Shown in pieces: positions 24,247 through 58,189 of a DNA stretch of 64,000 nt. Location of the stretch: positions 1-64,000 of the forward strand of contig JAKJHU010001533.1 of NCBI GenBank assembly GCA_022316685.1, in the 5' to 3' direction. The stretch's first letter is position 1, and each line of letters starts with the position of its first letter. The DNA is from Progne subis subis (Eukaryota > Chordata > Aves > Passeriformes > Hirundinidae). The position numbers and the translations under genes are program-made. The notes under the pieces were generated by a model, which was not told where the DNA came from, did no database searches, and saw only the letters and a list, made by a program, of their open reading frames with translations.

Positions 24247-25290
24247 CTAACCAATTATAGATTTATCATGTCGTCGAGTATAATCCTTTCTTAGGCCACG
24301 AAGGTCCTTCAGGGAAAAGGACTCAATAGTATCTCCTGATCTTGTAACAGTTGGTCGGGCTCCTGGTCTTGTACCAGTTGGTTGGGCTTCTGATTTTGTA
24401 TCAGTTGGTTCGGCTTCTGACTGTGTATCATCAGTTGCTTCAGCTTCTAATTGTGTGTTAGTTGGTTTGACTCCCGACTGGGTGTCAGGAGGCATTGAGG
24501 ATCCTTTACCTGAATCATCGTCTACTGGTTGATCGGTTTTGTCCGTGTGCTTCTTTCCCTTCTTTACTGCAGCAACTGCCGGTGTCTTAGCCTCACTGTC
24601 TGGTTTAGCTGCAGCCTGAATAGCTGTGGGGTTGGCTGCAGCCTGAGTGACTGATTTATCTCCCTGCTCCCTTGCCTCTATCTGCTGCCCTACAGTGTTT
24701 AGCAGTGTGCGACTCATTCTAGAAAAGCTATAAACCATATAGAGGAAAGTCATCAGGTGAAATACCAGGGAGGTGGGGTCTTTAACATTCAGGAGACCCT
24801 GAACATTCTCCAAAAGTGCTGTAACTGACTCAAAAGAGAAGAAGGAAAGAAGAGGCTGAAGAGCCTCATCCCCTACTCCTCCTCTAACAAACTGGGTGCA
24901 ATTATTGATAAATCCCTAAAACATGCTGCTGGAACTAGGATGCAGGGTAGGACGAAAGAACCATAAATTGAACATACCCAGAACAGACTCCAGTATCTTT
25001 ATAAGCTTCTTGTAAGCCATAATCACCGAACCCAGCAAAATAACTATTCTAATTTGTGCATCCCTAGTGTAAAAGCTGTATGTTAGGGACAATATTGGAG
25101 CTATTTCTGGGTAGGAAAGCAAACCTAGGGACCAGAAAGGTATTAAGACTTCAAAAAAGCCTTGGGAACAGAAATGCTGAAAAGACTCCATTCTAAGAGA
25201 TGTTAGGACTTCAAGAAGCAACATGGCCACTGTCTGTTTAATCCCCTCCCAAAGGACAACCAAAAAAAAAATGCAGTTAATAATAATCAA
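24247..25290 (-). pseudogene. gag: first ORF (gag-like) of ERVL B1
   Basis: Read leftwards from 25,290, the frame encodes four hydrophobic stretches (for example CIFFLVVLWEG, IRIVILLGSVIM), then a Thr/Glu/Lys-rich tail with imperfect decapeptide repeats of the form TDTKSEAQPT. A stop (TAG for the Trp in MFWGF of the other copies) interrupts at about 24,914 but the frame continues unchanged. The protein lies where gag should be. An N-terminal run of membrane-like helices is unusual for a gag. The function is unknown. Confidence 0.6.
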
Positions 25291-28489: not shown

Positions 28490-28846
28490 TGTAGCAGGAT
28501 TTTTGGAGATAGACACAGAGAGGCCTTACAGTGCTGGGAAAGTTCTGTTGTTTTAGCACTCTCAAGGACGTTGAGCCTGAGAACCAGGACACCGAGCCTG
28601 AGAACAAGCTGTTGGCCCCTCAATAAAGTGTAAACAGGTAACTACAAAGGAATGCTTATGCAGATAACACTAGCGAATAGTATAGCCCCCTGGGGCTCAT
28701 GGACATGAGGAGATAGCCAATGACATGTAGTAAAATGCCGCGTGAACAGCTTATGCACAAGAATGATATATGTATAAAAGAACCCTGTGTACCCTCAATA
28801 AATTGAGCGTTCACCACTACTTCTGTGAAGAAGGTGTTTGACTCGG
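28490..28846 (+). mobile_element. 5' LTR of provirus G, part 1
   Basis: Begins about TGTAGCAGGATTTTTGG; has TATAAAAG at about 28,774 and AATAAA at about 28,797 near the 3' end of this part. It is interrupted after CTCGG (28,842-28,846) by LTR A and resumes at 37,101 with TCTGCTCCCC, ending about AAAATCA at 37,130, just before the PBS. The exact first base is uncertain by a few nucleotides. Confidence 0.6.
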
Positions 28847-34614: not shown

Positions 34615-34905
34615 AGAGTATCTCCTGATTTTGTAGCAGTTGGTCGGGCTCCTGATCTTGTAGCAGTTGGTTGGGCTCTTGATGTTGTAGCAGTTGGTTG
34701 GGCTCCTGATCTTGTAGCAGCTGGTTGGGCTTCTGATCGTGTGCTAGTTGGTTGGACTCCCGATCTTGTACTAGTTGGTTGGGCTTCCGATTTTGTATCA
34801 GTTGGTTCAGCTTCTGACTGTGTATCATCAGTTGCTTCAGCTTCTGATTGTGTGTCAGGTGGTTTGACTTCCGACTGGGTGTCAGGAGGCACTGAGGATC
34901 CTTCA
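34615..34905 (-). repeat. 30-bp coding minisatellite in ERVL gag tail
   Basis: Units reading on the plus strand as GTAGCAGTTGGTTGGGCTCCTGATCTT with variants, about ten copies. Fewer copies are present in B1 (24,340-24,480) and B3 (51,740-51,920). Confidence 0.8.
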
Positions 34906-36412: not shown

Positions 36413-37100
36413 GAAAGATATGCATTTAAGGAGATAATTGTTATAATTTGTGTGTGGATTCGAGCAAAAGTGTTTGTGATGAACTAAGTAATATCCTATA
36501 AGATGCTTGAACAGAGAGAAAGATAAGAAGTCCCCTGCGTTAGTGAAGAAGTAAGAAGATATCTCTGTGCCTTGAGGTGAAGAATCCTTTGCTTTGGAGT
36601 TATTCATCTTTAAAAGGTGACACCCCAGTATGCAAAAGTCTAAGACCTATGACCCATAAGCAGCTTGGGAAACTGCTCCTGGGAGGGTCACAGGGGCAGG
36701 TTTCTCCGGGCGGTTGTTTTGGTGACAGTTTAAAACCCACAAGAGAACTGTTCTAAGTTGTCAGTGGGATCCATGACTCAAAAGGATACTCTTCCCCTAA
36801 TGAATTGATGAAAGACTATTATCAGATAGTGAAACTGACTGAAAATTACAAGTTTTGTCTCTTTATGTTGTTTTGTAAAAAAGTGAACAGTTTGTAAGGG
36901 GAGGGAAGAGTGGTTTTGGAGTTTCATTCTGTTTTAGGTTTTTTCCAACATTTTTTCTTTTCTATTCTTTTAGTGTATGTTAATAAAACTATTGGTTAAT
37001 TTTAAGGTTGAGCCTGCTTTGTTTTTCTCCTAGTCTCTCTCCCACAGAAAGAGTAAGTACCAAGACCAAAATTTAGTAAACGTGAAACCACTACACTCGG

Positions 37101-37156
37101 TCTGCTCCCCGCATTTTTTTTTCAAAATCACCTTTATTTGGTGCCGAACATCGGAC
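37101..37156 (+). promoter_or_regulatory. end of G LTR (to about 37,130) and primer-binding site (37,139-37,156)
   Basis: After the CTCGG duplication the G LTR resumes and appears to end at AAAATCA. A PBS-like TGGTGCCGAACATCGGAC follows at 37,139. I could not match it confidently to one tRNA; the 8-base gap to the presumed LTR end means one of the two boundaries is uncertain. Confidence 0.45.
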
Positions 37157-37434
37157 CTTGAGGTGACGACCTGGAGGAGAAAATTAGTGGTGGGACGCTG
37201 AGTGCTTGGACGCTGAAATCACCGGCAGATGCAGCTGCATTGAGGTGAGACCCTCCGGAAAATAGCGGTCCGACGCTGATCTGCCAAGAGATGCATCAGC
37301 ACTGAGGCAGAAGCTTGCCGTCCTTGCAAATATATTGCGATGCTGAGCTGGTAAGGGGAGCAGGGGGCAGTTTTCTTGAAAAAAGGTGGAAGGCTCTGAG
37401 TACTCCCTTCCCTGCCCCATTGACAACGGCAAGT

Positions 37435-38188
37435 ATGGAGTGAGAATTTGCTGCCGCACTGAAGTTGCTTATTAATATACTCTCTGAGAGAGGAAAAACA
37501 GTAGAAGAAAAAGTACTGCAAAAGCTGATTAACTGGGTGCATGGAAATGGACATTTAACAATCCCGCAGCACCGCGAAGTCGGGGAGGCGCCGTGGGGCC
37601 CCTGCCGTGCCCTCCCGCCGCCTCTGGCGCCCTGGCACTGTCACTGTCCAATGCCCAGCTCGCCGCTCCTGGCTTGCGGACCGCCCCCGTCCCTCCGCGG
37701 CAGCGGTTCCATGGTGCCCGCCGCCCCCCGCCGCCCCACAGTAACAGGCAGGACGAGGATAAAGCAGCCCCCAGGGGTCTGCCACTCCCACCGCCGCTGC
37801 TCCCAGTGCCGCCGCTCCCACAACGCATGCGCCGACTGCCCCGCCTTTTCTCGGCTGTGCCCGAAGAGATACCGGTCGACCAAGAGAGGGGAACCCGTGA
37901 CCTCTGCTGTCAACCACGTTCCCCCAATAATGTTCCACTGCCGGACGAATTAGAGGATGATGGAGCAGTGCTTCCCCTGGCAGAAACCCTGGCAGAACCC
38001 ACGATTGGTTTAAAAGAACTGACTGATCAAATTTAGGCAGTGATGCAGCGCCTGGATGAGTGAGTGCAAGCAGCAACTAACCTGCTGCTGGAAAAAGCCC
38101 AAGAACTATCTACAATAAATGCTAAAAATCAGGAGGAGCCAACATCATTTATCTCCCAGTTAACTCCACTGCAACGACTGCTAGAACA
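37435..38188 (+). pseudogene. gag: gag of provirus G, 5' part
   Basis: An ATG at 37,435 is followed two codons later by a TGA stop, then the frame reads LKLLINILSERGKTVEEKV, a helical matrix-like N-terminus, and a Pro/Arg-rich middle. After about 37,930 another frame carries the sense (LKELTDQI, then a Gln/Glu-rich coiled-coil-like segment up to QLTPLQRLLEH). At 38,188 it is cut by the LTR at 38,189. The continuation is found on the minus strand at 53,591. Stops and frameshifts make it non-functional. Confidence 0.65.
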
Positions 38189-38564
38189 TGTTACCCTGGT
38201 TTTTCTGAGGTTTTAAAGCCTTTTGAAATGGAGTCAGATCCTTTAGTTACTGTAGAATATTAGAGCAGTTTTCTACCTTTTCCCACATATGTAACATAAA
38301 CAAATCCTTTGTTTTTCATTCTCTGTCCTTTGTTTGCATATTTCTAACCTGAAAACAATTGTAACTGACAATTGGTCTGGCCAGTGAGGCTGAGGGGTGG
38401 AAACCCCAAAAAGCCAATCTTCTGCTAGACCCATAAATGTATAAAAAGTAAGAAATAAACAAAGGGGTCTTCTTCTCTCTGCTCTCTCGGCTGTGAGCTG
38501 GATCGGAAGGACCTCTGCGAAAATCTCTTGTCTGCGTGTGACTGCTTTGTGTGTCTCGGTGACA
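38189..38564 (+). mobile_element. 5' LTR of E1
   Basis: 376 bp, TGTTACCCTGG to CTCGGTGACA; AATAAA at about 38,455. Its variants match the LTR at 53,592-53,966, not its apparent partner at 45,187. Confidence 0.88.
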
Positions 38565-38566
38565 TC

Positions 38567-38584
38567 TGGTGACCCCGTGTGGAT
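38567..38584 (+). promoter_or_regulatory. PBS of E1, tRNA-Trp type
   Basis: TGGTGACCCCGTGTGGAT, matching the first 11 bases of the Trp PBS used by avian alpharetroviruses. E2 has the longer match. Confidence 0.7.
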
Positions 38585-38636
38585 GAGCAGTTTGGTGAGG
38601 TTTTCCTTTCCCTTTTTTCCCTGTTTTGTGTTTATT

Positions 38637-41184
38637 ATGGAGGATTTTTTAGTTTTGGAACTTTGGGGAGATCTCTTGGAGAGAAAGAACGCTCAGATCT
38701 CGCGGGAGGGACTACAGAGTCTATTTGCATGGGGCAGGCGGAGGAAGTTTTTTCCCACACCAGGGTCTGTGCTCAGTCGACGGGAGTGGTACCTCCTGGG
38801 GGACTATATGTTAGACACCCTTGATATAGAATATGATGAAGAAACTGCAGAATTGTTGCTGCAGTGGAGGTTATTTGAGAGACCTGTGTTTAAGTCGACC
38901 CCTTACAGCTCGAAGGCTGACAGCCCCAGTCCGAAGCAGGACGGAGAGCTGGAAGGGGGCGGGGTCATTATGTCAGACCCGGAATCTGAACTTCAGCTCC
39001 TTTGTGATGTGGATTCTTCCCCTTCCTCCCCCGTTCCTGCGCGGGGGGGGTTCCCCCCCTCGGGTTCCGGTGCTGGTCTCGGGCAGAGGGGGGGCAGAGC
39101 CCCGCCGGCCCCGCCGATCCCCATGCTGCAGAGCTGCCAGAGCGGGGCGGGGCTGCCTCCTCTCCATGCCTTTCCGGCGTTGGTGGGTGGGGGCGGCCCG
39201 GAAATGTGGGCTCCGCTTTCTTTTGGCCGAGATTCGGTCACTGTGCATTGTCTGTTCTGCCGCACGACCGTCACGTATCCGATGGGGTCGGCTGACGTGG
39301 AGTTTCCCGCTCTGCCGCCTGGGCCGGGCCTGGAGGCGGCTGCGTTGGCTGCCTCTCCCCCGCGCTGCCGGCAGCGCGGGGTGGGGACGCTGCCGAAGGC
39401 AGGGCCCCGGTTGGTCCCTCGGCGGGCACCGCCCCCATGCGCGGGCTGACAGCTCCGCTCCGCTCGGGGGTGGGGGGGGGCTGCAGGCTTCCGCCCCCCC
39501 GCGGGACCCCTTCTCGGGGGGGTTCCGGACACTCCGCCTCCCGCGCCAGCCCCATGGGCTGCAGGTGGTGCTCACGGGGCGGGAAGAGGCTCTAATGTGG
39601 CTGGCTCTAATCAGCTGCCAGCAGGGACTGTCGCGGCCCCGCCAGTGATGGAGGCGCAGTCGCCGCCTCCGCCTGAACGCAGCACAAGCTCCTCAGCCGC
39701 GCAGGGATGTGTTTCCGCCGCGGAGCCATCGGACCAGTCTCCAGCGGCCGGCGCGGGCTCCAGCGGCGCTGAGGATGTGGCGGGCCCAGCGCCTGCAGCT
39801 GGTCCGGCCCCCCCCCCTCCCCGCTTCCCGCTGCGAGCGTTGCGGCGGCTACGGGCGGCGAGGTGTTTAAGTTCAGCACGAACGGGGACACAGCCAGAAT
39901 GCGGCCGGTCTTTGACAGGAGCAAAAGTTCCTGCGCTGTTGGCTCTTCGTAAACAGCCTGGACACTACCCCCTTGTCAGGTGACCATACGGCCGAGAGAC
40001 CGTGGGCAGTTCTGGGACAAGGTGATAGCTAAGGTTGAAGGATTGAGTGCTGGTGCTGGACCTGCAGTGCCTGATGTTCAGCCAGTCCCCAGCCGAGTGC
40101 CTGCCTCTGACCCTATGGGGTCCACAGGGCAGGATAAGGCAGGTGCTGCTGCTTCATCTGAGGGTCTTCAGGCCTTTCCTGTCCTTCAGGGTCCTGCTCA
40201 TAACACCTATCAACCCTTGGCTTGGCAGGCTTTGACAGAACTGCGTGGTGCAGTCGGGAAGTATGGTCTGGGCTCAGCAGAGGTGATGCAGGTTCTCTGT
40301 TATTTTAATGCCAGTCTTTTGACACCCTTTGACATTCGGAGCTTGGCTCGAGCCTTTTTCCCACCAGTTGAATATGACTTCTTTGAGCATAAATGGACTC
40401 AGTTGGCAGTCAGAGCGGTGGAACGGAATAGGACACTGGGTCAGGGTGACCCTAGGCATATGGTTAATATCGATATGCTAATGGGAACAGGCAATTATAC
40501 CAGGGCCGAAGGGCAGGCTGGTTATGAGCCCTTGGTCCAGGAGCAGTGCCAGCAGACAGGCATGGCAGCCCTGGTTCAGACCTTACAGCTGGCTACCCCA
40601 CAGCAGGCCTTTGCAACAATTGTCCAGGGAGTTGAAGAGCCCTTCCTGTGCTTTGCAGGATGGCTGACTGCTGCTGTGGACAAGCAGGTGAGTGATCCTG
40701 CAGCAAGGAAGCTCATGATTCAGTCCCTTGCTCAGGGCAACTGCAATGCAGTTTGCAAGAGGATAATTGAAGCGCTTCCCGGGGAACCATCCATGTCGGA
40801 CATGGTTGGGGCCTGTGCAAAGGTATCCCCTTCCAGCCAACATGTGGCTGCCGTGCCTACAGCTGTGCAGCCAGCTGTGGCTACGATTGTCCAACCGACG
40901 GTGACTACAGCGGTCCAGCCGGCCGTGCCTGTGGCCGTGCAACCGGCTGTGGCTACTGCTGTGCAGTCTGTTTGGGTTGTTCCCCAGGGGGTGCAACAGT
41001 AGCAGTGGGGTGCTCAGGCCAGGAAGAAACAGGGTGGAAAGGCACAGAAGTCTACGGCTGTCTTGTTTTATTGTGCACGATGTGGAAGGCTGAATCACGC
41101 TACAACTGCGTGTAAGGCGACAGTGCATGTGAATGGTCAGCCATTGGGCAGTTCGGGAAACGCAACGCAGAGCGCGAAGGCATG
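38637..41184 (+). pseudogene. gag: gag of E1 (matrix, Pro-rich, capsid, zinc knuckle)
   Basis: Start ATG at 38,637 gives MEDFLVLELWGDLLERK, matching the E2 start. A GC-rich Pro/Gly section (39,000-39,950) has a stop at 39,449 and a frame change. Capsid is clear at 39,980-41,002, including AWQALTELRGAVGKYG, a major homology region with QGVEEPFLCFAGWL, and a C-terminal domain. A tandem region of Ala/Val-Gln-Pro repeats (about 40,850-40,990) is followed by a TAG at 41,000. In the same frame lies a CCHC knuckle, CARCGRLNHATTAC, near 41,075. Gag ends with a TGA at about 41,184. Confidence 0.8.
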
Positions 41185-41958
41185 ATGCGTGCTGACACAA
41201 ATGTCTCTGCCTCAGCCCCAACCAATGGAGATCTGCTCAGCAGGCTTGCAGCCAGCACCCGCGGTTCAGCAGGTGTTGATGTCTGCACAGCCGAGTCTGT
41301 CGTGATTGATTCGGAAAGAATACACAAGGTTCCCCTGGATGCCTTTGGTCCCCTGGGTGATGGCATGAGTGCTTTCTTGATGGGGAGGTCCAGTGCCACC
41401 ATTCAGGGTATCATGGTGCACCTGGGACTGAATGATGTGGATTTTTCGGGACAGATTCACACAATGGTCTCCACACCCACCCCCCCTCTGACTATCCCAA
41501 AAGGCACATGAATTGCTCAACTTGTTCCTTTTAAGTCTTCTGTTTCCAGAACCGAGGACCGGTCGCGAGATGACGGTGGTTTCATCTCTACTGGGCCGCC
41601 TCAAGTGCGCTGGACTGCTGTCCTGACCAAAGACCATCTTGAGAGGCTGTGTATCGTGTCCATGGTTGGTGCCACGCCGTCGGAGATTCACCTTCGTGGC
41701 CTCCTAGATACGGAGGCAGGCGTGAGCATTCTCTCCCTGGCTGCTTGGCCCTCGCAGTGGCCTTTGAGCCTGACAAAGACATCTATATTGGGCTTAGGAG
41801 GAACGAAGCAATGCTACGTGAGCCGGAATCCCGTGGCCATCACGAACCCGGAGGGACAGACAGCCATAATTTGGCCTCATGTTACTGAGATTCCTCAGAA
41901 CCTCTGGGGGAGGAATGTTTTGGCCATGTGGGGGGTGCGATTTGGAACGGATTTTTGA
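41185..41958 (+). pseudogene. pro: dUTPase-protease of E1
   Basis: The dUTPase part shows RGSAGVDVCTAE (motif 1), GRSSA (motif 2), a motif-3 block with NDVDFSGQIHTMV, and a motif-5 KGT-stop-IAQLVPF in which a TGA replaces Arg (41,509). The protease follows with LLDTEAGVSIL: the catalytic D-T-G has become D-T-E. The end [14 protein letters not shown] is a usual class II protease C-terminus. dUTPase would lower dUTP; protease would mature gag. Both E1 and E2 share the D-T-E change. Confidence 0.8.
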
Positions 41959-42392
41959 TTGGGGCCACTGTGATGAAGGGCGCAGAGTGTCCCACGCCTC
42001 CTTTACAGTGGTTGGTGGACGGACCCATCTGGGAGAACCAGTGGCCCCTCCCTCATGACAAACTAATCGCCCTTCGTGAACTCGTACAGGAGCAGTTGGA
42101 TCAGGGGCATTTGGAACCACCTACCAGTTCCTGGAACACTCCTGTCTTTTGTATCAAAAAGAAGTCTGGGAAATGGAGGTTGCTACAAGACCTGCGAAAG
42201 GTCAATGCCATGATGGAAGGCATGGAGACATTGCAGGCGGGCATGCCATCGCCTACCATGCTTCCCGTGGACTGGCCGGTCCTCATTGTGGATCTGAAGG
42301 ATTGTTTTTTAACGATCCCTCTGCATCCTGATGAAAGACCAAAATTTGCCTTCACAGTACCAACAATAAATAATGCAAAGCCCGCACAGCGG
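41928..42392 (+). pseudogene. pol: reverse transcriptase of E1, N-terminal part
   Basis: Overlaps the protease end in another frame, as in pro-pol frameshifting. It contains [20 protein letters not shown] and [20 protein letters not shown] (first catalytic Asp). It stops at QR where solo LTR D is inserted; the next codons (TAT CAA TGG) follow at 43,076 in frame. Confidence 0.82.
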
Positions 42393-43070
42393 TGTGGTGG
42401 TGCAGAACTGTTTTATTAGGTTTTTGTAAGAAGTTTATGTTATGGTTCATTTCACTGTATCCCCAATTTTGTATCCCTTTTGTGTCATCTGTATAATAAG
42501 GTGTTTTGTGTCAATCATCCCACCCCTCACATGGCATGTAACATCCCCTCTGCCCCCCCTCACTCTGGGGCAGCCTGTCTATCACTCCAGGGGTCCCTCC
42601 CAGATTGCGAAACCTCAGGGAGAGGGCTTCAGGTAGATAGGTAGCCTGGGGGAATTCTTTTCCTCTGGAGGTGGTTGGTCCGAGGCTTGGGGGTGGGCAC
42701 ACCTTGTTACCCCCTGAATCCCCTGATTTGCTGTCTTGTTGTATCCTCCCTGGAACCCCTCCCCCGCTTATAAGGGAGAGGGAGATTCAAAGCTTTCTCT
42801 CTCCGAGCAGCTCCTCGCTCAGCTGCTCCTCTCTCAGCTGCTCAGCTCTCAGCCTCTGAGCTCTCTGCTTCTCAACTCTGGAGCTAATAAACATCTTTTA
42901 ACCTGCTAAGCTGAGAGCCAGCCTTTTCTCTTCTGCTGCTGTTGACTGTCTCGACATACGGGGTCCAACTGCTAAGCCGAAGCCGAAACGAACTGGAAAC
43001 ATCTGTATCTGTGTTGACCGAGCTAGCCAGAGGTCCTCTCCCGCCCGGAGTGGGGAAAAAACCAGATACA
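42393..43070 (+). mobile_element. solo LTR 'D' inserted in E1 RT
   Basis: 678 bp, TGTGGTGGTGCAG to CCAGATACA, flanked by AGCGG (42,388-42,392 and 43,071-43,075). TATAA in GCTTATAAGGG at about 42,768 and AATAAA at about 42,886 give plus orientation. The start of an antisense copy is at 63,948. Confidence 0.88.
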
Positions 43071-43075
43071 AGCGG

Positions 43076-45106
43076 TATCAATGGAGAGTTCTGCCTCTGG
43101 AATGGACAATCCGTCACCAGGAGGTGCATTTTGTGCAATTGGTGAAGACACTGAATGATGCTCAGAAGCTGGTAGGTTTTATCACTTGGTTATGTCCTTA
43201 CTTGGGACTGACCACAGCACAACTGTCTCCTTTGTTTGAATTGTTGAAAGGGGACACTGATTTAAAGTCACCTCGTGAATTGACTCCTGAGGCACGAAAA
43301 GTGCTGGAGGAGGTTCAACAAGCTGTTTCGGCTCGCCAGGCGTACCGCATTGAACCTTCCATTGATGTCACTGTGTTCATTACCACTCCTGATTTACATC
43401 CTACAGGTATCATCGGCCAATGGAATGATGATTGGACTGATCCTCTGCACGTATTGGAATGGGTCTTCCTGCCTCATCAGCCGTGTAAGACGGTGACGGC
43501 GCTGTTTGAATTGATTGCGCGCTTGATAATCAAGTGCCGGCAACGCTGTTTGCAATTGATGGGTGCAGATCCCTCAAAGATCATACTCCCCATTCAGAGG
43601 GAGGAATTTGATTGGAGCTATGCGAACAATGTTTCGCTGCAAAGTGCTCTCGAGGGTTTTTCAGGGCAGATCACTTATCATCTGCCTAGCCACAAGCTAT
43701 TGCAAGTGGCCAAAAATACTCAATTTTCTCTACGACCCAAAAATAGCCAAGAGCCAGTGCAAGGACCCACCGTCTTCACTGACGGTTCAGGCAAAACAGG
43801 AAAAGCCATTGTTACCTGGCAGGATGGATCTGAGTGGCAGGTTTTGGAAGGCCATGAGGATGCGTCAGCCCAACTGGTTGAACTAAGGGCTGCTGTCATG
43901 GCATTTGAGAAATTTTCCCAGGAACCTTTCAATTTGATCACGGATTCAGCCTATGTTGCTGACATCGCACAGCGATTGGGTTGTTCAGTTTTGAAGGAGG
44001 TCAGTCACCCTGCCTTGTTTAATTTACTGAAGGCCCTGTGGTGTGCAATTCAGGCCAGAGTTCATCCATACTACGTTCTGCATGTACGGAGTCACACTAA
44101 ATTGCCAGGACTTGTAGCAGAAGGTAACGCAAGGGCTGACAAGTTGGCTAACCCAGCGTGGGTAGCCCCTCAGCCTGACGTGCTCGCGCAGGCCAAGGCA
44201 TCGCATGGGTTTTTCCACCAAAATGCGCATACGCTGCAGAAGCAGTTCAAACTGACAGCCACTGAGTCTCATGAGATTGTCGAGTCGTGCGACGACTGCC
44301 ACGCCCTTGGTGCGCCATTGCCGGCAGGAGTTAACACCAGAGGCCTTAAAGCCTTGGAGCTTTGGCAGACCGATGTCACCCAGGTCGCCGAGTTTGGCCG
44401 GCTCAAGTATGTGCATGTCACGGTGGACACGTTCTCCTCTGCGATGTGGGCTTCTGCTCACACAGGAGAGAAAGCCCGTGATGTCATTGCCCACTGGAGG
44501 CAGGCCTTTGCCGTTCTTGGCATACCTTCTGCTGTGAAAACCGACAATGGTCCTGCTTATGCCTCGCAGCAGGTACGGCAGTTCCTACAGTCGTGGGGTG
44601 TGTCACATAACTTTGGCATCCCTCATTCTCCGACGGGACAGGCGATTGTAGAATGCGCTCACGGTACACTCAAGCGTGTTCTTCAAAAACAAAAACAGGG
44701 AATGCAGGGTGAAACCCCGCACAGTCGGTTGGCAAAGGCTTTGTACACCATCAATCACCTTATGGTGCCGCAGAACTCAAATAATCCTGTCATTTTGAAC
44801 CATCATCTCTCGTTGCAGGCTTCAGACGGTGAGCAACAGCCTCAAGGCAAGGTACGGGTCCGAAATTTAGTCACCAAGCAATGGGAAAGACCCTATGACC
44901 TAATCGCTATGGGGCGAGGGTATGCGTGTGTGTCCACAGACACTGGGACACGCTGGCTACCTTCAAAGTGTGTCCGTCCTGACCTGCGACCACAGAGGCA
45001 GAATTCAGCCGACAGGCAAGGTGGAAGCCGTGATCTACTTGAAAGCCACCAAGTGGATGAATCCTCGAGTGATCACTCTGATGATTCCTCCACAGACAGT
45101 GATTGA
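43076..45106 (+). pseudogene. pol: pol of E1, C-terminal part: RT thumb, RNase H, integrase
   Basis: One open frame of about 677 codons. It begins YQWRVLPLEW and jumps directly to thumb sequence (VKTLNDAQKLVG), so the palm with YMDD is deleted (E2 retains it). RNase H residues: FTDGSG, VELRAA, ITDSAYV and EGNARADKLA. Integrase: HHCC with SHEIVESCDDC, Asp in WQTDVTQV, Asp in VKTDNGPAYA, Glu in GQAIVECAHGTLK, and a C-terminal RWLPSK block. The tail is Ser/Asp-rich. The RNase H and integrase regions show no stop, which suggests recent age, but the protein as a whole is defective. Confidence 0.82.
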
Positions 45107-45174
45107 ATTTGTATATATTCCTTTTGTAAATTTGTTCATTTTTTCTTTTTCTGTTTTTCTTTTTTTGTAAAGTT

Positions 45175-45186
45175 AAAAGGGTGAGA
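45175..45186 (+). other. polypurine tract of E1
   Basis: AAAAGGGTGAGA directly before the 3' LTR. Confidence 0.8.
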
Positions 45187-45562
45187 TGTCACCCTGGTTT
45201 TTCTGAGTTTTTTAAGGCCTTTTGATTGTTCATAAAATGGAGTCAGACTTTTTAGCTACTGTACAATATTAGGAGCAGTTTCTACTCTTTCTCACACATG
45301 TAACACAAACAAATCCTTTGTTTCTCATTCCCTGTCCTTTGTTTGCATATTTCTAACCTGAAAACAATTGTAACTGACAGTTGGTCTGGCCATTTGGCTG
45401 GGAGGTGTAAACTCCAGAAGCCAATCCACAGCCAGACCCAGAAATGTATAAAAAGTAAGAAATTAACAGGCAGAGGCTCTCGGCCTTGGCTCTCTTGGAG
45501 GAACAACTCTGCCCTGCGAAATCTCTTGTCTCCGTGTGATTGCTTTGCGTATCCCGATCACA
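45187..45562 (+). mobile_element. 3' LTR of E1
   Basis: 376 bp, TGTCACCCTGG to CCCGATCACA. Shares TTGATTGTTCATAAAATGG with the LTR at 57,085-57,460, absent from 38,189. Right flank ATATCC equals (as complement) the flank right of 57,460. Confidence 0.88.
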
Positions 45563-46007
45563 ATATCCCTCTCTTAATGGCCTCCACTGTCTGCGCAAAT
45601 TCCCAATCTGCTACTCCACCAAAATCTTTAGGAACGGGGTTAGGTATTCTCAACACTACCTGTGCTGCTTGATACAAGGCATAAGGGTACCACTATAGCA
45701 ATGGTCACACAAACCACCCTTATGCCAAAGCTTTGGTGCCTCTCTCTGAAATTGTGCACCACAAACTCTGCAGCTCACTTCTATAACTATTAGTTCCTGA
45801 TACTGAGGACACTCTTTTTTCTTGCCCCTCATACAAGTCCTGGGAAAGTTCCAACAATCCCAAGGGGCCTTGGTGATCAAAGATGCATGCTACAACGCAG
45901 TCTAGGTCAGGAGGGCATTGTTCACCAGCGGCCTCAACCTCCAGCTGTCTCAGCAAGATGGTCCGTGCTCTTCTTCCTTCTTTTCCTTCCTTGCTGGCCG
46001 AGTCCAT
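45563..46007 (-). pseudogene. Cys-rich ORF of provirus G upstream of env
   Basis: Minus-strand frames 46,007-45,720 (start MDSASKEGKEGRR) and 45,880-45,563 (with CRVCGAQFQREAP and LCDHC) form a CxxC...CxxC pattern like a small zinc ribbon. A frameshift near 45,850 separates them. If the E element at this edge is removed, the second frame remains open into the plus-strand sequence at 57,461 and stops at 57,552, overlapping the env start. That continuity suggests a real pre-insertion ORF. The family is not recognised. Confidence 0.5.
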
Positions 46008-46849
46008 TTACTCAGTATCCATTGTGGCCCAAATGCAAAGTTCAAAGGCTTGGGTGCAGCTGTTGTCGAATTCACCTCAGAGGTGTCGTGATCACTGACC
46101 AGCAGGTTTCAGAGTGACGGATTCCAGGGCCCTTGGAGATCTGTCAGTCTGGAACGAATTTGAGATCAGCTGCTCTGGCCGGAAGTGTTCCTCTTATCTT
46201 CTCCGGAGCTGACCATCTGGACTTTTATCTTCAGAGAGCTTGCAGTGTTCACTGCATGCAGAAGGCTTACTGTGACCCTGTTCAGCATGACACCACTTTG
46301 TCAGCAATGCACGAGTAAAATCCACCCCAGCTTGGTGCTTACTTGGCAGCTGCTGCAACCACACAACTTAGTAAGATATCTCTGGGTTTTTACCAGCTTA
46401 AGTCTTTAGTAAATAAATTCCAAGTGGACACTAAACAAGTATTTCGCTAAGAGATGATGAAATACTAAAATGAAAAGCAAGTCAGATTGCAGATGTAATT
46501 ATACTACATTAGAAACTCCAGTTGGTGAGGATCCATTCACCATATAGAGAGAAATTAGTAATCAAGGTAATTACAAAGACAGAGCATTTGTCTCCTGCAT
46601 GCTTTTCCAGGCTTGGAATCAACAGAGTTGACTACATGGAGAGTTGCCTAGGGTGAACTCAGAATTCACTCTCTCAGGCAGGAGACTAGTTAAGGAGTGT
46701 TACTGATAACAAAGAAGAAAAGTTATACAACATTGATTATTATAAATTACTTTGTTCTCATCTGCTTTTAGCATTTGTCTCCTACAAGTCTTCATCCATT
46801 CCTGTAGAAACCTAACTCTTTTTCCATTCCCCTGTGGCAGCTCCCATCC
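46008..46849 (-). other. non-coding segment between CEPT1 stop and the Cys-rich ORF
   Basis: A/T-rich, no sustained frame. The part next to 46,849 is probably CEPT1 3' UTR; the part near 46,008 is probably viral. I could not find the boundary and saw no poly(A) run. Confidence 0.45.
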
Positions 46850-47836
46850 CTAGTGATGGTTCGAGGGCATGGGGCAGCCCTTGATGCAGAACACGTGGAT
46901 GTGCAGGTGGGCAGCAATTCTGGCTGCACACGCTGACACAGTATTGGAGCAGTTTAAACAGGGACAGAATCAGGGCAATCCAGAGGACAATATACTTATC
47001 AATAAAGCTGTTAAAGTACTTGGTCAAGGAACAGCAATGCTGGTCCTGTGAATGCTGTGTCGTATAAATACATTTCACTCTTGGTTATGTGGGCAACCAC
47101 CAGTTTATTTGTGATCTTGGCAGACATAAAGCCAAAAGTCAGGATGCAGAGGCAGGGGTGCCTCTCAAAGAGCTGCACAGCAAATTTCTTGTAGATCATT
47201 GCAGCCAAGGCAATCACGGAGCTAATATGAAGAAAAGGTGAGAGGACACTTGTTCCTGCTAAAGTGGATCCCTTTTTTGCCAACTCCAGTTTGCACAGGA
47301 GAATATGGTTCCTGCCACAGTACAAAGAGTTGGGAGTATTTTCACCTGAATGTTCAGTATTAGTATCAGAGATTGCTAAAAAGGCGGTCCTCCAATCACT
47401 GCCAGTAAATGCATGATTATTATGACGATTTGTATTTCAGTCACATCAATCATGTCGAAGCGCAGCGTTCTTGAGATCTATGTCTGTCAGTGTGCGCAGT
47501 AAAACATGAATGTCACAGCAAAACAGCAGAGGAGCATCCAGTCACAGTTGGTGTACAGCTGCACAGCAATACAAATTTCTAAAACCACAAAGACTGTGGA
47601 CAATGAATCACAGCCATGATCAAAAAGCTCTCCTAACGGAGTGCTGCTCTTTGTCCTTCTTGCTTGTTTTCCATCTGTAGCATTCAGGGACTGGAATGCC
47701 ACAGGCACAAGCAATGAATGTCCAGGGAGGCGTCTGCCTTTGAAGCTGTTGAGCAGTAACATACTAATAGCAGAGTTGTAAATATATTTATTAACAGTTT
47801 GATGATGATGATCCGATTGGGGGCAATCCAGGCTGG
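46850..47836 (-). pseudogene. CEPT1: CEPT1 (choline/ethanolamine phosphotransferase) partial intronless copy, fused to viral gag
   Basis: The minus strand encodes CEPT1 from PAWIAPN (roughly residue 85 of about 416) to the natural C-terminus ending SNHH and a stop at 46,850-46,852. All residues of the CDP-alcohol phosphotransferase motif D-G-x2-A-R-x8-G-x3-D-x3-D are present at 47,675-47,607 (DGKQARR ... ELFDHGCD). Later blocks include [41 protein letters not shown] and FNSFID. CEPT1 makes phosphatidylcholine and phosphatidylethanolamine in ER/nuclear membranes. Lesions: frameshifts near 47,730 and 46,930, a stop for Trp near 47,375, and a deletion of about 24 bases near 47,290. There are no introns, so it came from spliced mRNA. 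The match favours CEPT1 over CHPT1. Confidence 0.9.
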
Positions 47837-47971
47837 AGAATTCATATCAGCAGTATGAATCCAATCTATCATTGCTAGAGCAGTTTTAGATTTCAAGCTG
47901 TGCTCTTTTACTGCATTTTTTGCCTGTTGCAAGATTTTCCATTCATGCTGCTCATACACAGGATTGCCATC
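47837..47971 (-). pseudogene. gag: gag capsid N-terminal segment of G, in frame with CEPT1
   Basis: Minus-strand VYEQHEWKILQQAKNAVKEH and following helices resemble the start of a class II capsid (P-V-x-E...W-K-x-L...A-V-K-E...D-W). The reading frame runs without break from capsid (TADMNS) into CEPT1 (PAWIAPN) at about 47,836. The upstream edge is cut by ERVL B3 at 47,971 (TSD CCATC); its continuation is at 53,434. Confidence 0.7.
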
Positions 47972-51648: not shown

Positions 51649-52700
51649 CTAACTAAATACAGATTCATCATGTCGTCGAGTATAATCCTTTCTTAGGCCA
51701 CGAAGGTCCTTCAGGGAAAAGGACTCAATAGTATCTCTGGATCTTGTAGCAGTTGGTCGGGCTCCTGATCTTGTAGCAGTTGGTTGGGCTCCTGATCTTG
51801 TAGCAGCTGGTTGGGCTTCTGATTTTGTATCAGTTGGTTCAGCTTCTGACTGTGTATCATGAGTTGCTTCAGCTTCTGATTGTGTGTCAGTTGGTTTGAC
51901 TCCCGACTGGGTGTCAGGGGGCATTGAGGATCTTTCACCTGAATTATCGTCTACTGGTCGATCGGTTTTGTCCGTGTGCTTCTTTCCCTTCTTTACTGCA
52001 GCAACTGCTGGTGTCTTAGCCTCACTGTCTGGTTTTGCTGCAGCCTGAATGGCTGTGGGATTGGCTGCAGCCTGAGTGACTGATTTATCTCCCTGCTCCC
52101 TTGCCTCTATCTGCTGCCCTACAGTGTTTAGCAGTGTGTGACTCATTCTAGAAAAGCTATAAGCCATATAGAGGAAAGTCATCAGGTGAAATACCAGGGA
52201 GGTGGGGTCTTTAACATTCAGGAGACCCTGAACATTTTCCAAAAGTGATGTAACTGGCTCAAAAGAGAAGAAGGAAAAAAGAGGCTGAAGAGCCTCATCC
52301 CCTACTCCTATTCTAACAAACTGGGTGCAATTATTGATAAATCCCCAAAACATGCTGCTGGAACTAGGACGCAGGGTAGGACGAAAAACCATAAACTGAA
52401 CATACTCAGAACAAACTCCAGTATCTTTATAAGCTTCTTGTAAACCATAATCACTGAAACCAGCAAAATAACTATTCTAATTTGTGCATCCTTAGTGTAA
52501 AAGCTGTATGTTAGGGACAATATTTGAGCTATTTCTGGGTAGGAAAACAAACCTAGGGACTAGGAAGGTATTAAGACCTCAAAAAAGCTTAGGGAACAGA
52601 AATGCAGAAAATATTCTAAGAGACATTAGGACTTTAAGAAGCACCATGGCCACTGTCTGTTTAATCCCCTCCCAAAGGACAACCAACAAAAATAAATGCA
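51649..52700 (-). pseudogene. gag: first ORF of ERVL B3 (hydrophobic plus repeat tail)
   Basis: 52,550-52,400 carries the hydrophobic part; after a frameshift, 52,392-51,649 continues through MFWGFINNCTQFV and the Ala/Lys linker to a short repeat tail (about five units). The Trp missing in B1 is intact here. Confidence 0.6.
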
Positions 52701-53433: not shown

Positions 53434-53591
53434 CCATCTCTGAACACAACAGGACATGCTACAAGACATGCTGTGTCTCCTGCGGGTTCCACTGTCTTTC
53501 TCGTATAGCATCTCGTATAATTTTGGACCATCGAGTCACAGGTGGAGCAGGCGAAGGCATTGCCTGGGAACTGCTTTCTGCAGTCTCTTCT
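53434..53591 (-). pseudogene. gag: gag segment of provirus G (matrix-capsid junction)
   Basis: Minus strand from 53,591: coding traces PPVTRWSKIIRDAIRE and ACPVVFRDG, a class II pre-capsid linker and capsid start. A frameshift lies near 53,465. It links the gag piece at 38,188 (other side of the E insertion) with the capsid piece at 47,971 (other side of ERVL B3). Confidence 0.62.
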
Positions 53592-53966
53592 TGTCACCGA
53601 GACCCACAAAGCAGTCACATGCAGACAAGAGATTTTCGCAGAGGTCCTTCCGATCCAGCTCACAGCCGAGAGAGCAGAGAGAAGAAGACCCCTTTGTTTA
53701 TTTCTTACTTTTTATACATTTATGGGTCTAGCAGAAGATTGGCTTTTTGGGGTTTCCCCCCCCCCAGCCTCAGTGGCCAGACCAATTGTCAGTTACAATT
53801 GTTTTCAGGTTAGAAATATGCAAACAAAGGACAGAGAATGAAAAACAAAGGATTTGTTTGTTACATCTGTGAGAAAAGGTAGAAAACTGCTCTAATATTC
53901 TACAGTAACTAAAGGATCTGACTCCATTTCAAAAGGCTTTAAAAACTCAGAAAAATCAGGGTAACA
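53592..53966 (-). mobile_element. 3' LTR of E2
   Basis: 375 bp; on the minus strand begins TGTTACCC like the E1 5' LTR and shares its AATGGAGTCAGATCC variant. Polypurine tract CTAAAAGGGTGAGA at 53,967-53,980. Confidence 0.86.
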
Positions 53967-53989
53967 TCTCACCCTTTTAGCTTTACAAA

Positions 53990-54754
53990 AAAAGAAAAAC
54001 AGAAAAAGAAAAATTCCAGAATTTTGACCCCCAAATATTTCCAGGGAGGTTGTTGTTGTACCTGTTCTGGAGCCACCTGCAGTCCATGTGAATGCAGAGC
54101 ATTCAACAACTGAGGCTGTATCCTCAGCAGCTCATCCTGGGTGGGCGCAGCCACCAAAATGTCGTCCATATAATGATAGATGTGAGTACCGGGAAACTGC
54201 TTGCGAACTCCAGACAAGGCACAGGCTACATACAGGTGGCATAACACTGGGGAATTTCGCATGCCCTGAGGCAAAAATTTCCATTGATACCGCTGTGCAG
54301 GCTCGGCATTATTTATTCTTGGTACCGTGAAGGCAAATTTTGGTCTTTCATCAGGATGCAGAGGGATCGTAAAAAAAAAATCCTTCAGATCCACAATGCG
54401 GACCAGCCAGTCCATGGGAAGCATGGTAGGCGATGGCATGCCCGCCTGCAATGTCCCCATGCCTTCCATCACGGCATTGATCTTTCGGAGGTCTTGTAGC
54501 AACCTCCATTTCCCAGACTTCTTTTTGATACAAAAGACAGGAGTGTTCCAGGGACTGGTAGATGGTTCCAAATGCCTCTGGTCCAACTGCTCCTGTACGA
54601 GTTCAAAAAGGGCCACTAGCTTGTCATGAGGGAGGGGCCAATGGTTCTCCCAGATGGGTCTGTCCACCAGCCACCGTAGAGGAGGCGTGGGACACTCTGC
54701 GCCCTTCATCACAGTGGCCCCAATCAAAAATCCGTTCCCAATCGCACCCCCCAT
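53990..54754 (-). pseudogene. pol: reverse transcriptase of E2
   Basis: A continuous frame from protease overlap to WKYLGVKI, with [47 protein letters not shown] and HYMDDILVAAP, so all RT palm motifs are present. It then runs into A/T-rich 3' non-coding DNA; thumb, RNase H and integrase are deleted. The palm that E1 lacks is present here. Confidence 0.8.
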
Positions 54755-55600
54755 GCGGCCAAAACATTCCTCCCCCAGAGGTTCTGAGGAATCTCAGTAA
54801 CATGAGGCCAAATTAGGGCCATCTGTCCCTCCAGGTTCATGATGGCCACGGGATTCTGGCTCACGTAGCATTGCTTCGTTCCTCCTAAGCCCGCGATCGA
54901 TGTCATTGCCAGGTTCAAATGCCACTGCGGGGGCCAAGCAGCCAGGGAGAGAATGCTCACGCCTGCCTCCGTATCTAGGAGGCCACAAAGGTGAATATCC
55001 TGGACCAAGGGCTCAAAACCAGCCTGCCCGTCGGCCCTGGTATAATTGCCTGTTCCCATTAGCATATCGGTATTAACCATACGCCTAGGCTCCCCTGGAC
55101 CCAGTGTCCTATTCCGTTCCACCGCTCTGACTGCCAACTGAGTCCATTTATGCTCAAAGAAGTCATATTCAGCCAGTGGCAAAAGTGCTCGAGCCAAGCT
55201 CCGAATGTCAAAGGGTGTCAAAGACTGGCATTAAAATAACGGAGAACCGGCATCACCTCAGCTGAGCCCAGACCATACTTCCCGACTGCACCACGCAGTT
55301 CTGTCAAGGCCTGCCAAGCCAAGGGTTGATAGGTGTTATGAGTAGCACCCTGAAGGACAGGAAAGGCCTCAAGACCCTCAGATGAAACAGCAGCACCTGC
55401 CTTATCCTGCCCTGTGGGCCCCACAGGGTCAGAGGCAGGCACTCAGCTGGGGACCGGCTGAACACCAGACATCACATGTCCAGCACCAGCATCAGCACCA
55501 CCGTTCAGTCCTTCAACCTTAGCTTTTACCTCCCCCCAGAATTGCCTGCGTTCTTTCGGGCATACCGTCACCTGATAGGGGGGGAGCGTCCAGCAGGCTG
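54724..55600 (-). pseudogene. gag: capsid fused to protease in E2
   Basis: 55,442-55,218 and 55,221-54,996 encode capsid (AWQALTELRGAVGKYG, EHKWTQLAVRAVERN) up to FEPLVQ, which jumps to DIHLCGLLDTEAGVSIL, the protease. About 1.15 kb (capsid C-terminus, knuckle, dUTPase) is missing compared with E1. The protease again has D-T-E. Confidence 0.72.
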
Positions 55601-57009
55601 TGGATGAAGAGCCAACAGCGCGGGACCCTCTGCTCTTGTTAAAGACCGGCCGCATTCCGGCCGTGTCCTCGTTCGCGCTGAACTTAAACACCTCGGCGCC
55701 CACCACGGCCGTAACGCTCACAGCGGGAAGCGGAGGCAGGGCCGGACCAGGTGCTGGTGCCGGGCCTGCCGCATCCGCAGCAGGGCGGGAGCCTGCCAGC
55801 AGCGCCGCGGCACCGGCCACCGGAGACCAGTCAAAGGGCTCCGTGGTGGGCACACATCCCGGCCTAGCTGGGGAGCTCGGGCTGTATTGAGGCGGAGACG
55901 GCAACCGAACCTCGGCCACACCAGGGGTCGCGCCGTCCCCCGCCGGCAGCCTATCACAGCTGGCCGTACCAGAGTCTCTCCCCGTCCGGGAGCACCATCC
56001 CCAGCCGCAGCCCATGGTGCTGGCACGGGGAGCGGAGCTTCTGGGACCTCCCCGAGAAGAGTCCCTGCGGGGGGGCAGAAGCCTGCAGGCACCGCCCCCC
56101 CCAAGTGGGGCGGAGCTGTCAGCCCGCCCATGGGGGCGGCGTCCATCGAAGAACAGACCGGGACCTTGCCTCTGGCAGCGTCCCCGCCCCGCGCCCCCTC
56201 AGCAGGCGGCGCGGGGACAGAAGTGGCCAACACACCCCCCTCCGGGCCTGGCCTGGGTGGCAGGGTGGGGTGCTCTGCTTCACCCGACTCCATCGGATAA
56301 GTGATCGTCGTGCGGCAGCACGGACAGTGCACAGTGACCGAATCCTGGTCAACCGACAGTGGGGGCCGCACCCCTGGGCCGTCCCCCCCCACCAACGCCG
56401 GAAAGGCATGGAGGGGAGGCGGCCCCGCCCCGCTCCGGTGGCTCCGCAGCGCGTGGACAGGCAGGACCGGCCCCGGGCTCGGCAGGGTCCCGCCCCGCCG
56501 CTGCCCGAGCAGCGCTGACGGGGTCGGGACGCGACCCCCACTCAGAGATCATCGCCGGAGCCCGATGGGATAAAACCACCCGGCACAGGGACCGGGGAGG
56601 AAGGGGTTGAGTCCATCTCACAAGGGAGCTGAAGCTCGGACTCAGACAATACTTCCGGGTCTGATATAATGACCCCGCCCCCCTCCAGCCCCCCGTCCAG
56701 CCTCGAAATGGGGGAGACAGCCCGCGAGGAATGCGAGCTGGGAGGGGTCGACCTAAACAGAGCCCTCTCAAATAACTTCCACTGCAGCAACAAACTTGCA
56801 ATCTCCTCATCATATTCTCTTTCAAGGGAGTCCATCAGACGTTCTCCCAGGAGGAACCATACCTGCCGACTGAGCACAGCATTTGGCGGGGGAAAGAACC
56901 CACGCTCTCTGCCCCACGCGAACAGACGCTGAAGCCCCTCCCAGGAGACTTGAGCGTGTTTCCGCTCCAAGAGGTCCCCCCAAAGCTCCAATACCAGAGT
57001 GTCCTGCAT
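55601..57009 (-). pseudogene. gag: gag matrix and Pro-rich region of E2
   Basis: ATG at 57,009 gives MQDTLVLELWGDLLERK, equal to E1 in layout. The matrix frame is open to about 56,542; the GC-rich Pro/Gly part is frame-shifted. Long plus-strand frames in this segment are composition artefacts. Confidence 0.7.
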
Positions 57010-57064
57010 GGCAGGCACACCACAGGGAAAAAGGGGAAGGAAAACCCCACCAGACTGTTTCTCC

Positions 57065-57082
57065 CACATGTCGGGGTCACCA
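57065..57082 (-). promoter_or_regulatory. PBS of E2, tRNA-Trp
   Basis: Minus strand TGGTGACCCCGACATGTG, close to the avian tRNA-Trp PBS (TGGTGACCCCGACGTGAT). Confidence 0.78.
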
Positions 57083-57084
57083 CT

Positions 57085-57460
57085 TGTGATCGGGATATGC
57101 AAAGCAATCACACAGAGACAAGAGATTTCGCAGGGCAGAGTTGTTCCTCCGAGAGAGCCAAGGCTGAGAGCCTCTGCCTGTTAATTTCTTACTTTTTATA
57201 CATTTCTGGGTCTGGCTGTGGATTGGCTTCTGGAGTTTACACCTCCCAGCCAAATGGCCAGACCAACTGTCAGTTACAATTGTTTTCAGGTTAGAAATAT
57301 GCAAACAAAGGACAGAGAATGAGAAACAAAGGATTTGTTTATGTTACATGTGTGAGAAAGAGTAGAAACTGCTCCTAATATTGTACAGTAGCTAAAAAGT
57401 CTGACTCCATTTTATGAACAATCAAAAGGCCTTAAAAAACTCAAAAAACCCAGGGTGACA
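57085..57460 (-). mobile_element. 5' LTR of E2
   Basis: 376 bp; minus strand TGTCACCCTGG to CCCGATCACA, matching E1's 3' LTR in diagnostic variants. Confidence 0.88.
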
Positions 57461-57464
57461 GGAT

Positions 57465-58189
57465 ATGGCAGGCCCGCATGGTAAGACCTTCTCGCATGTT
57501 GCGTGCCTTTTGCTCATGGTGTCAACAAGTGTTGCAGGATCTTCTCAACTAGCTCATCAATTTTCTAAGAGATCTAATGTATGGGTGACATTTGCCAAAA
57601 TGACTGGACAGGATTCTATTTGCCTTAGCCTGGCCCATCCCCAAAACCTGTTCAGAACTTCTTTAACAGGAACACCCCTTTGGAGCCCTCACAAATTTAT
57701 AGGTTATGTGAAAAATGAAACATTTCTGAATTTTACTGTGGCAAACACCACGCTGTGGACATCAGGTTTCACAGCCACCCAGGCTGATGGAGGCTGGCAG
57801 TGTAAAAATTATAGAGCAACTTAATGATATGCTTACTTCACCACCTGAAGAATTAGACCTCCATGAATGTATGAATGCCAGCTCTACGAATAGAAGTGAG
57901 GGAGGTTGGGTGTCCTTTGAGCACCTCACAGAGCAGAGTCTAAATATACATAGCCAGAAATCGGCTGCAATAAATTCAGCTTGACTATCTAGTAGCAGTA
58001 TACACCAACAACTTTATTCCAAATGTATTTTGACTGGCAAACCAGCGTGACACCTTCCACCAGGAGTATTTTTAATATGTGGGGACCGCACTTGGAATGG
58101 AGTCCCAGCCAGCCCACATGGGGGCCCATGCTATTTAGGGAAGCTTACCCTGTGTCATGGTTTTAATTTCAAAACGGGCAGAAACACCA
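57465..58189 (+). pseudogene. env: env surface-subunit fragment of provirus G
   Basis: ATG at 57,465 opens a 119-codon frame with a hydrophobic leader (VACLLLMVSTSVAG), then NVWVTFAKMTGQDSICLSLA, a surface-subunit N-terminal pattern of avian alpha-like envelopes, and two N-glycosylation sites (NETF, NTTL). It ends at a stop near 57,824, but coding traces continue ([24 protein letters not shown]) to about 58,160. LTR A' truncates it at 58,195. The fusion subunit is not in the window. It is non-functional. Confidence 0.62.

Follow-up and report, generated by a model that had tools for sequence, protein, structure and literature searches.

We have found that the genome of Progne subis subis harbors a family of endogenous proviruses in which a retroviral gag capsid sequence runs in frame into an intronless copy of the host gene CEPT1. 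The account that we consider very probable is that a retrovirus without pol transduced CEPT1 and spread by means of helper enzymes, with CEPT1 carried as a passenger. This family constitutes a new and unusually well-documented variant of retroviral gene capture, and one genome preserves the host gene, relatives without CEPT1, the breakpoint on the 5' side and a ladder of intermediate copies, which makes it possible to read in what order capture, loss of function and spread took place.

Results

In the window (the whole stretch of 64,000 nucleotides that was analysed), the minus strand from 47,971 to 46,850 holds a retroviral capsid piece joined in frame to intronless CEPT1 (Table 1). In a Pfam scan the capsid piece upstream of the junction matched Gag_p24 (PF00607) above the cutoff, with an E value of 5.8e-06; two other copies scored below the cutoff, and no Pfam match was obtained with three ORFs from the gag region of copy C2354. 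The P codon of PAWIAPN begins at 47,836, the part that follows is colinear with the spliced host exons and the natural CEPT1 stop is at 46,852-46,850. When gene-body pieces were used in PDB searches, CEPT1 outscored its paralogue CHPT1 for three of them; the short junction ORF scored slightly higher with CHPT1 (37.7 versus 36.6 bits).

A preliminary description of this DNA had proposed an in-frame fusion of gag capsid to intronless CEPT1, retention of the natural C-terminal stop at 46,850 and decay to a pseudogene, and all of this was borne out: the Gag_p24 homology is genuine, if weaker in two other copies, and indels and stops break the CEPT1 of the window. The interval 47,971-46,850 that it gave does contain the fusion but is incomplete, as the host-derived sequence continues past the stop into the 3'UTR, reaching about 46,274, and the upstream gag is located elsewhere. 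Where the description erred was in assigning all motif residues to one reading frame. Beyond the junction the frame that enters from gag runs on for 50 codons and then closes, after a 1-nt insertion (near codon 33) and a deletion of 8 nt, and the catalytic motif and the later part of the gene occupy two other frames (ORF 47,846-47,487 for the motif; 47,436-47,011 in the third frame).

Table 1. Parts of the gag-CEPT1 provirus in the window, in element order.
Feature	Position	Strand	Basis
5' LTR, first part (TGTAGCAGGA...)	28490..28846	+	80% identity to LTR positions 1-310 of two other copies; then another ERV with flanking CTCGG duplications
5' LTR, end (...AAAATCACCTTTA)	37095..37136	+	86% identity to LTR positions 307-348 of copy C2117
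Primer binding site and leader	37138..37434	+	aligned with leader of other copies
gag 5' part (matrix-like by eye), broken	37435..38188	+	80-85% to copies C2354 and C2117; interrupted by provirus A
gag segment immediately upstream of capsid	53434..53591	-	85-89% to contiguous gag of other copies; adjoins provirus C
gag capsid N-terminal piece up to junction	47837..47971	-	PF00607, 5.8e-06; CEPT1-less relatives diverge beyond junction
CEPT1 coding part, 338 host codons aligned (stop included), intronless, with indels and stops	46850..47836	-	host exon alignment, PDB searches
CEPT1 3'UTR part, ends mid-UTR without poly(A)	46274..46849	-	host 3'UTR match of relatives C2354 and C2117; base-level breakpoint from other copies
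Cys-rich viral ORF, 3 stops here, open in several other copies	45567..46007	-	Hirundo rustica homologue 89% to copy C2354
env 5' part, truncated by another ERV	57461..58157	+	91-92% to two other copies whose env matches Avian_gp85 (PF03708)

The host CEPT1 gene was located on C1358 through an exon match (91%). Eight of its exons were examined, and the 7 introns between them, which have GT-AG ends after a small by-eye adjustment of boundaries, are absent from the copies. The joined host exons are open over 374 codons plus a stop; 338 codons (stop included) were captured in a piece of about 1.6 kb. The 5' breakpoint lies inside a coding exon, the host reading GAGTT-CCAGCCTGGATTGC, the window and most copies ...TTCT-CCAGCCTGGA and a CEPT1-less relative ATTCTCCGCTGGATTGC; as judged from this alignment, the 5' switch appears to have occurred at TCC/A within a patch of similarity. 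At the 3' breakpoint host and copies agree up to ...CAGGGTC and then diverge, and the copies inspected pass from mid-3'UTR directly into viral sequence. The marks of a LINE-made processed pseudogene, which the preliminary description had named as an alternative, were looked for in the CEPT1 part, and neither a poly(A) nor a target duplication of its own was found. Breakpoints in an exon and in a 3'UTR without poly(A) form the pattern that template switching on a spliced mRNA would leave.

The element is laid out as LTR-gag-CEPT1-Cys ORF-env-LTR. Its env matches Avian_gp85 (2.3e-14 and 1.5e-13 in C2354 and C2117). The Cys-rich ORF is about 148 aa long, is located before env and is stop-free over at least 146 aa in 4 of 10 downstream pieces; it is also widespread, with at least 150 genome matches (the best 150 of 228 candidates were scored), and a protein search with one example (P0001, L020:4249-4692:-) returned only a swallow homologue, 89% identical. 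In 10 ORFs scanned from C2354 and C2117, which represent part of the ORFs of these copies, there was no pol or gag domain. We take the element to be probably betaretrovirus-like. Bearing on a class II assignment are PF00607, above the cutoff in the window copy and below it in 2 others, and an RT thumb in 1 CEPT1-less relative; the env is of the Avian_gp85 type.

A 49-aa gag probe gave at least 155 genome matches (best 150 of 271 candidates scored), and among six gag pieces that were retrieved three continue as gag (L089, L092, L094) and three enter CEPT1 (L090, L091, L093). Downstream of the one CEPT1-less relative sampled, a 207-aa ORF contains an RT thumb domain (1.6e-09). The distance from capsid to Cys-rich ORF is 4.2, 4.8 and 4.2 kb in the CEPT1-less relatives C2218, C147 and C2328, respectively, and 1.8-2.5 kb in six CEPT1 copies (the window, C2354, C2117, C114, C438 and C1450). 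Given this shorter gap and the pol-bearing relative, CEPT1 occupies the place of late gag and pol; from the lengths compared, about 1.6 kb of CEPT1 would replace roughly 4 kb of the relatives. The loss of pol suggested at the outset, in an arrangement of gag, CEPT1, Cys-rich ORF and env, would accord with the lack of a pol domain in the 10 ORFs and with the short gap. That host cDNA was transduced by a provirus containing gag, a Cys-rich ORF and env, in which pol was not detected, is strongly supported.

The window copy has been taken apart by later insertions. Its pieces at 37,138-38,188, 53,591-53,434, 47,972-45,563 and 57,461-58,157 line up with successive parts of a single element as represented by C2354 and C2117, upstream and downstream pieces having been compared separately, and its primer site is presumably of the Lys type. 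Provirus C (53,433-47,972, minus strand) is inserted in gag with a 5-bp duplication, GATGG. The env 5' part continues from 45,563 across the 6-bp GGATAT duplication of provirus B and is broken off at about 58,157, and no 3' LTR of this copy turned up in the window or in the final 7.2 kb of the contig. Proviruses A and B (38,189-45,562 and 53,592-57,460), which we assume from a primer site to be alpharetrovirus-like, make up an inverted pair with exchanged LTR similarity: the 5' LTR of A is 96.8% identical to the 3' LTR of B and the 3' LTR of A is 97.9% identical to the 5' LTR of B, while the two LTRs of A share 79%. Their target duplications are likewise crossed, with AGAACA/AGAAGA (a mismatch at one of six bases) flanking A and GGATAT present twice. 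The swapped similarity and crossed duplications point to inversion of the segment between A and B, CEPT1 included, and recombination between the two proviruses would leave this pattern. Related ERV stretches of the window also contain 27-30 bp tandem repeats (24,333-24,488; 34,622-34,884; 51,740-51,889), the last of which falls inside a 275-aa ORF.

The gag-CEPT1 junction is present many times in the genome searched (1.166 Gb in 2,896 contigs). The 1,122-bp gag-CEPT1 query gave at least 41 matches (best 40 of 225 candidates scored), and a junction pattern of 30 nt, allowed to differ at no more than 3 positions, gave 169 (84+85), which may include the host exon; the reversed control gave 0. Both ends were retrieved for 10 copies, and these have LTRs, a primer site and a polypurine tract. 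The LTR starts TGTAGCAGG, ends CACCTT(T/C)A and is 343-392 bp long where the pair could be separated; the 3' LTR of C1450 contains an insert. Target duplications of 6 bp were found in 4 of the 10 two-ended copies (exact in C1450, C2117 and C114; 5 of 6 bases in C2354); none was found in C2218, C2838, C2127 and C2870, and the ends of C1247 and C259 gave no clear answer. C2218 and C2838 (L017-L018, L023-L024) have a second primer site and leader after the 3' LTR, as would tandem proviruses sharing an LTR.

K2P distances were available for 8 of the 10 LTR pairs, C1247 and C259 being without a value. The clean pairs gave 0.024 (C2117), 0.041 (C2354) and 0.042 (C114). Values for the remainder do not come from clean pairs: 0.036 for the tandem C2218 and C2838, 0.154 and 0.130 for C2127 and C2870, which are without a duplication, and 0.316 for C1450, an artefact of its insert. 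The songbird substitution rate is near 2e-9 per site per year, and at this rate the three clean pairs suggest an age of very roughly 6-10 million years.

We obtained 5' flanks for 31 of 40 copies (the window, the 10 two-ended copies and 20 further copies), and these form 10 clusters, or 9 sites once C2218 and C2838 were merged by eye. One site holds 22 of the 31 flanks, indicating that a single insertion was multiplied at the DNA level and that there were far fewer than 169 retroviral insertions; the other 9 rows lie at 8 further sites. The preliminary description had called for a search for multiple insertions with the same junction, and this is what the 169 matches, the 9 sites and the four copies with duplications of their own provide; the junction is therefore no single-copy assembly chimera, and the chimera was propagated as a unit. 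The shared 22-contig site (for example L015, L021, L025, L027 and L070-L084) has the look of a large DNA-level amplification, perhaps sex-linked or satellite-like. In many copies (such as L008, L036, L055 and L056) A-runs are expanding in the gag capsid (KKKK..) before the junction.

Our first alignment held 40 rows, the window and the 39 copies nearest to it. All 40 have a 23-nt deletion and TGA in place of TGG at codon 119, 39-40 have the 8-nt deletion (shifted by one base in one row), and codon 156 is a stop in 35 and TAC or TAT in 5. A founder already broken by both deletions was considered and dropped when a pattern for the undeleted 8-nt segment was found at 5 genome places, the host and four copies; the earlier reading reflected sampling bias because the 40 rows were those nearest to the window. 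With the host as root the ladder runs from the host through L098, L103, L095 and L104 to 46 further rows: L098 and L103 have neither deletion, as far as they are readable, L095, which is interrupted near host nt 405 by another ERV, is without the 8-nt deletion, and L104 has the 23-nt deletion only. In L096, L097 and L101 there is a 79-nt deletion (CEPT1 nt 500-578) with the same end point as the common 23-nt deletion.

Codon 156, TGG in the host, is TAG, TAC or TAT in 49 of 49 readable copies (41 TAG, 4 TAC and 1 TAT in the 46 main rows; TAG in 3 early rows), and a full-length open CEPT1 frame is absent. Five changes are fixed between the host and all readable copies, four of them silent and the fifth the codon-156 stop. 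The ancestor from which all readable copies descend probably already had this stop, a timing that rests on three early rows, one of the four early copies found being unreadable at this codon.

The pattern of substitution in the captured gene is that expected under neutrality, where the expectation was built from the copies' own mutation spectrum and post-insertion decay is included. Across 50 copies the variable states number 393 non-silent, 166 silent and 18 stop, compared with 392.9, 163.1 and 21.0 under neutrality (p 0.79); a count over 40 rows agrees (272/103/12, p 0.61). Neutrality also fits states present in at least 3 of the 50 rows (129/64/6, p 0.45), codons 1-155 (p 0.34; 0.90 for states in at least 3 rows) and codons 157-337 (p 0.43; 0.21). 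The 22 changes fixed between the host and the 40 rows (11 non-silent, 9 silent, 2 stop) are somewhat silent-rich and include change in the host lineage. Of the 7 positions that we take to make up the catalytic motif, 6 are host-like in at least 39 of 50 rows, often out of frame, and one glycine is host-like in only 19. The proposal that phosphatidylcholine/ethanolamine supply might have benefited the virus is thus unsupported, codon 156 being TAN in every readable row, and the dN/dS-type comparison across copies advised in the same description revealed no departure from neutrality.

The fusion is also present in the barn swallow (Hirundo rustica), where a 209-aa protein (P0006) has the identical gag-CEPT1 junction. 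Its precomputed Pfam domains are CDP-OH_P_transf and Gag_p24, and its UniRef name starts Choline/ethanolaminephosphotr. Over 126 aa P0006 has 98% identity to L090, and over 138 aa 96% to L095, with which it also has an in-frame loss in common; its last residue is the one preceding codon 156. Captured codons 1-155 are open in the swallow protein, so that a truncated product is possible. A protein search with the junction ORF of the window gave nothing informative, and a viral-contig scan of 70 stretches yielded 0 confirmed.

Discussion

We favor a scenario in which the spliced mRNA of CEPT1 was captured by a bird retrovirus that was betaretrovirus-like. We infer that viral RNA and CEPT1 mRNA were packaged together and that two template switches followed. 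One would have joined gag capsid to CEPT1 inside an exon, at the PAWIAPN codon, where the two have a short patch in common (TCC/A beside CTGGATTGC); the other would have linked the CEPT1 3'UTR to the viral sequence that precedes the Cys-rich ORF. As the LTRs, primer site, polypurine tract and env were kept, the element would have been mobilisable by the Gag-Pol of related full-length proviruses, and further deletions would have been gathered as it continued to spread. Damage that accumulates during spread is what marks CEPT1 as a passenger, and the family suggests that a transducing provirus can multiply even if the gene it carries is of no use to it.

An unlikely alternative is that a working CEPT1, full or truncated, was used by the virus for membrane lipid supply or for anchoring Gag to membranes and decayed only after endogenisation. 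The in-frame junction, the 209-aa fused ORF annotated in the barn swallow and the six well-preserved motif positions could all be read in this way, but codon 156 is TAN in all 49 readable rows, changes shared by three or more rows fit neutrality both over codons 1-155 and over the whole, and the seventh motif position is host-like in no more than 19 of 50 rows. A narrower variant, that the codon-156 stop fixed a short Gag-CEPT1 (the capsid N-domain plus captured codons 1-155, the catalytic motif among them) that was for a short time of use to the virus, for example as a membrane-anchored Gag partner, before it decayed, seems to us quite doubtful. We would also regard it as unlikely that the template was the transcript of a young CEPT1 processed pseudogene already bearing the codon-156 stop, instead of a functional mRNA. 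That the stop is the sole non-silent change among the five fixed ones is suggestive of such a template; however, the other four being silent is as expected for a fresh mRNA plus change in the host lineage, and a non-exhaustive search turned up no separate CEPT1 pseudogene.

The remaining readings concern how the chimera arose and multiplied. An intronless, 5' truncated CEPT1 is also what a LINE (CR1) would leave on inserting a processed pseudogene in or beside a gag fragment, but the same junction at 169 places, the run from mid-3'UTR into viral sequence without poly(A), and copies bounded by LTRs with target duplications make this very improbable. Equally improbable as an explanation for the family is multiplication of one capture locus purely by DNA duplication, without retroviral spread: it accounts for the 22 of 31 flanks at one site and is true for that sub-group, but is contradicted for the family by the nine rows at eight further sites (one pair merged by eye) and by the four copies with their own matching 6-bp duplications. 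An assembly chimera is hardly conceivable; although the region is repeat-rich, no support for one was found, and the junction is on many contigs and also in the separately annotated barn swallow assembly.

Several known systems resemble the retroviral transduction that we prefer as a reading. In acute transforming retroviruses gag is fused in frame to a 5'-truncated host cDNA, pol is lost and a helper is needed. The gag-CEPT1 element resembles these in its in-frame fusion and truncated cDNA, with pol undetected and helper use probable, but differs in that CEPT1 is a metabolic enzyme without a known oncogenic role and that, in a germline family, it is truncated and evolves neutrally. LTR-mediated retrocopies made by template switching, which are mostly single events, likewise have spliced host mRNA enclosed by LTR sequences and breakpoints that fall within exons; the gag-CEPT1 chimera, unlike these, made many insertions. 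As judged by titles and the starts of abstracts, searches of the open-licence literature showed no CEPT1-bearing provirus, although the fusion does figure in a swallow protein record, and host-gene capture does not appear in the part of a songbird LTR paper available to us (PMC6523648). The nearest published case that we met is that of crocodilian ERVs that captured KIT-ligand and nectin3, with ORFs reported to be under purifying selection and nectin3 replacing env (Chong et al. 2014, PMC4299795). Those are also multi-copy endogenous proviruses with captured host mRNA, in one instance at the expense of a viral gene; in the gag-CEPT1 family, by contrast, the gene for a lipid enzyme, CEPT1, stands at the position of pol, and no readable copy has codon 156 intact.
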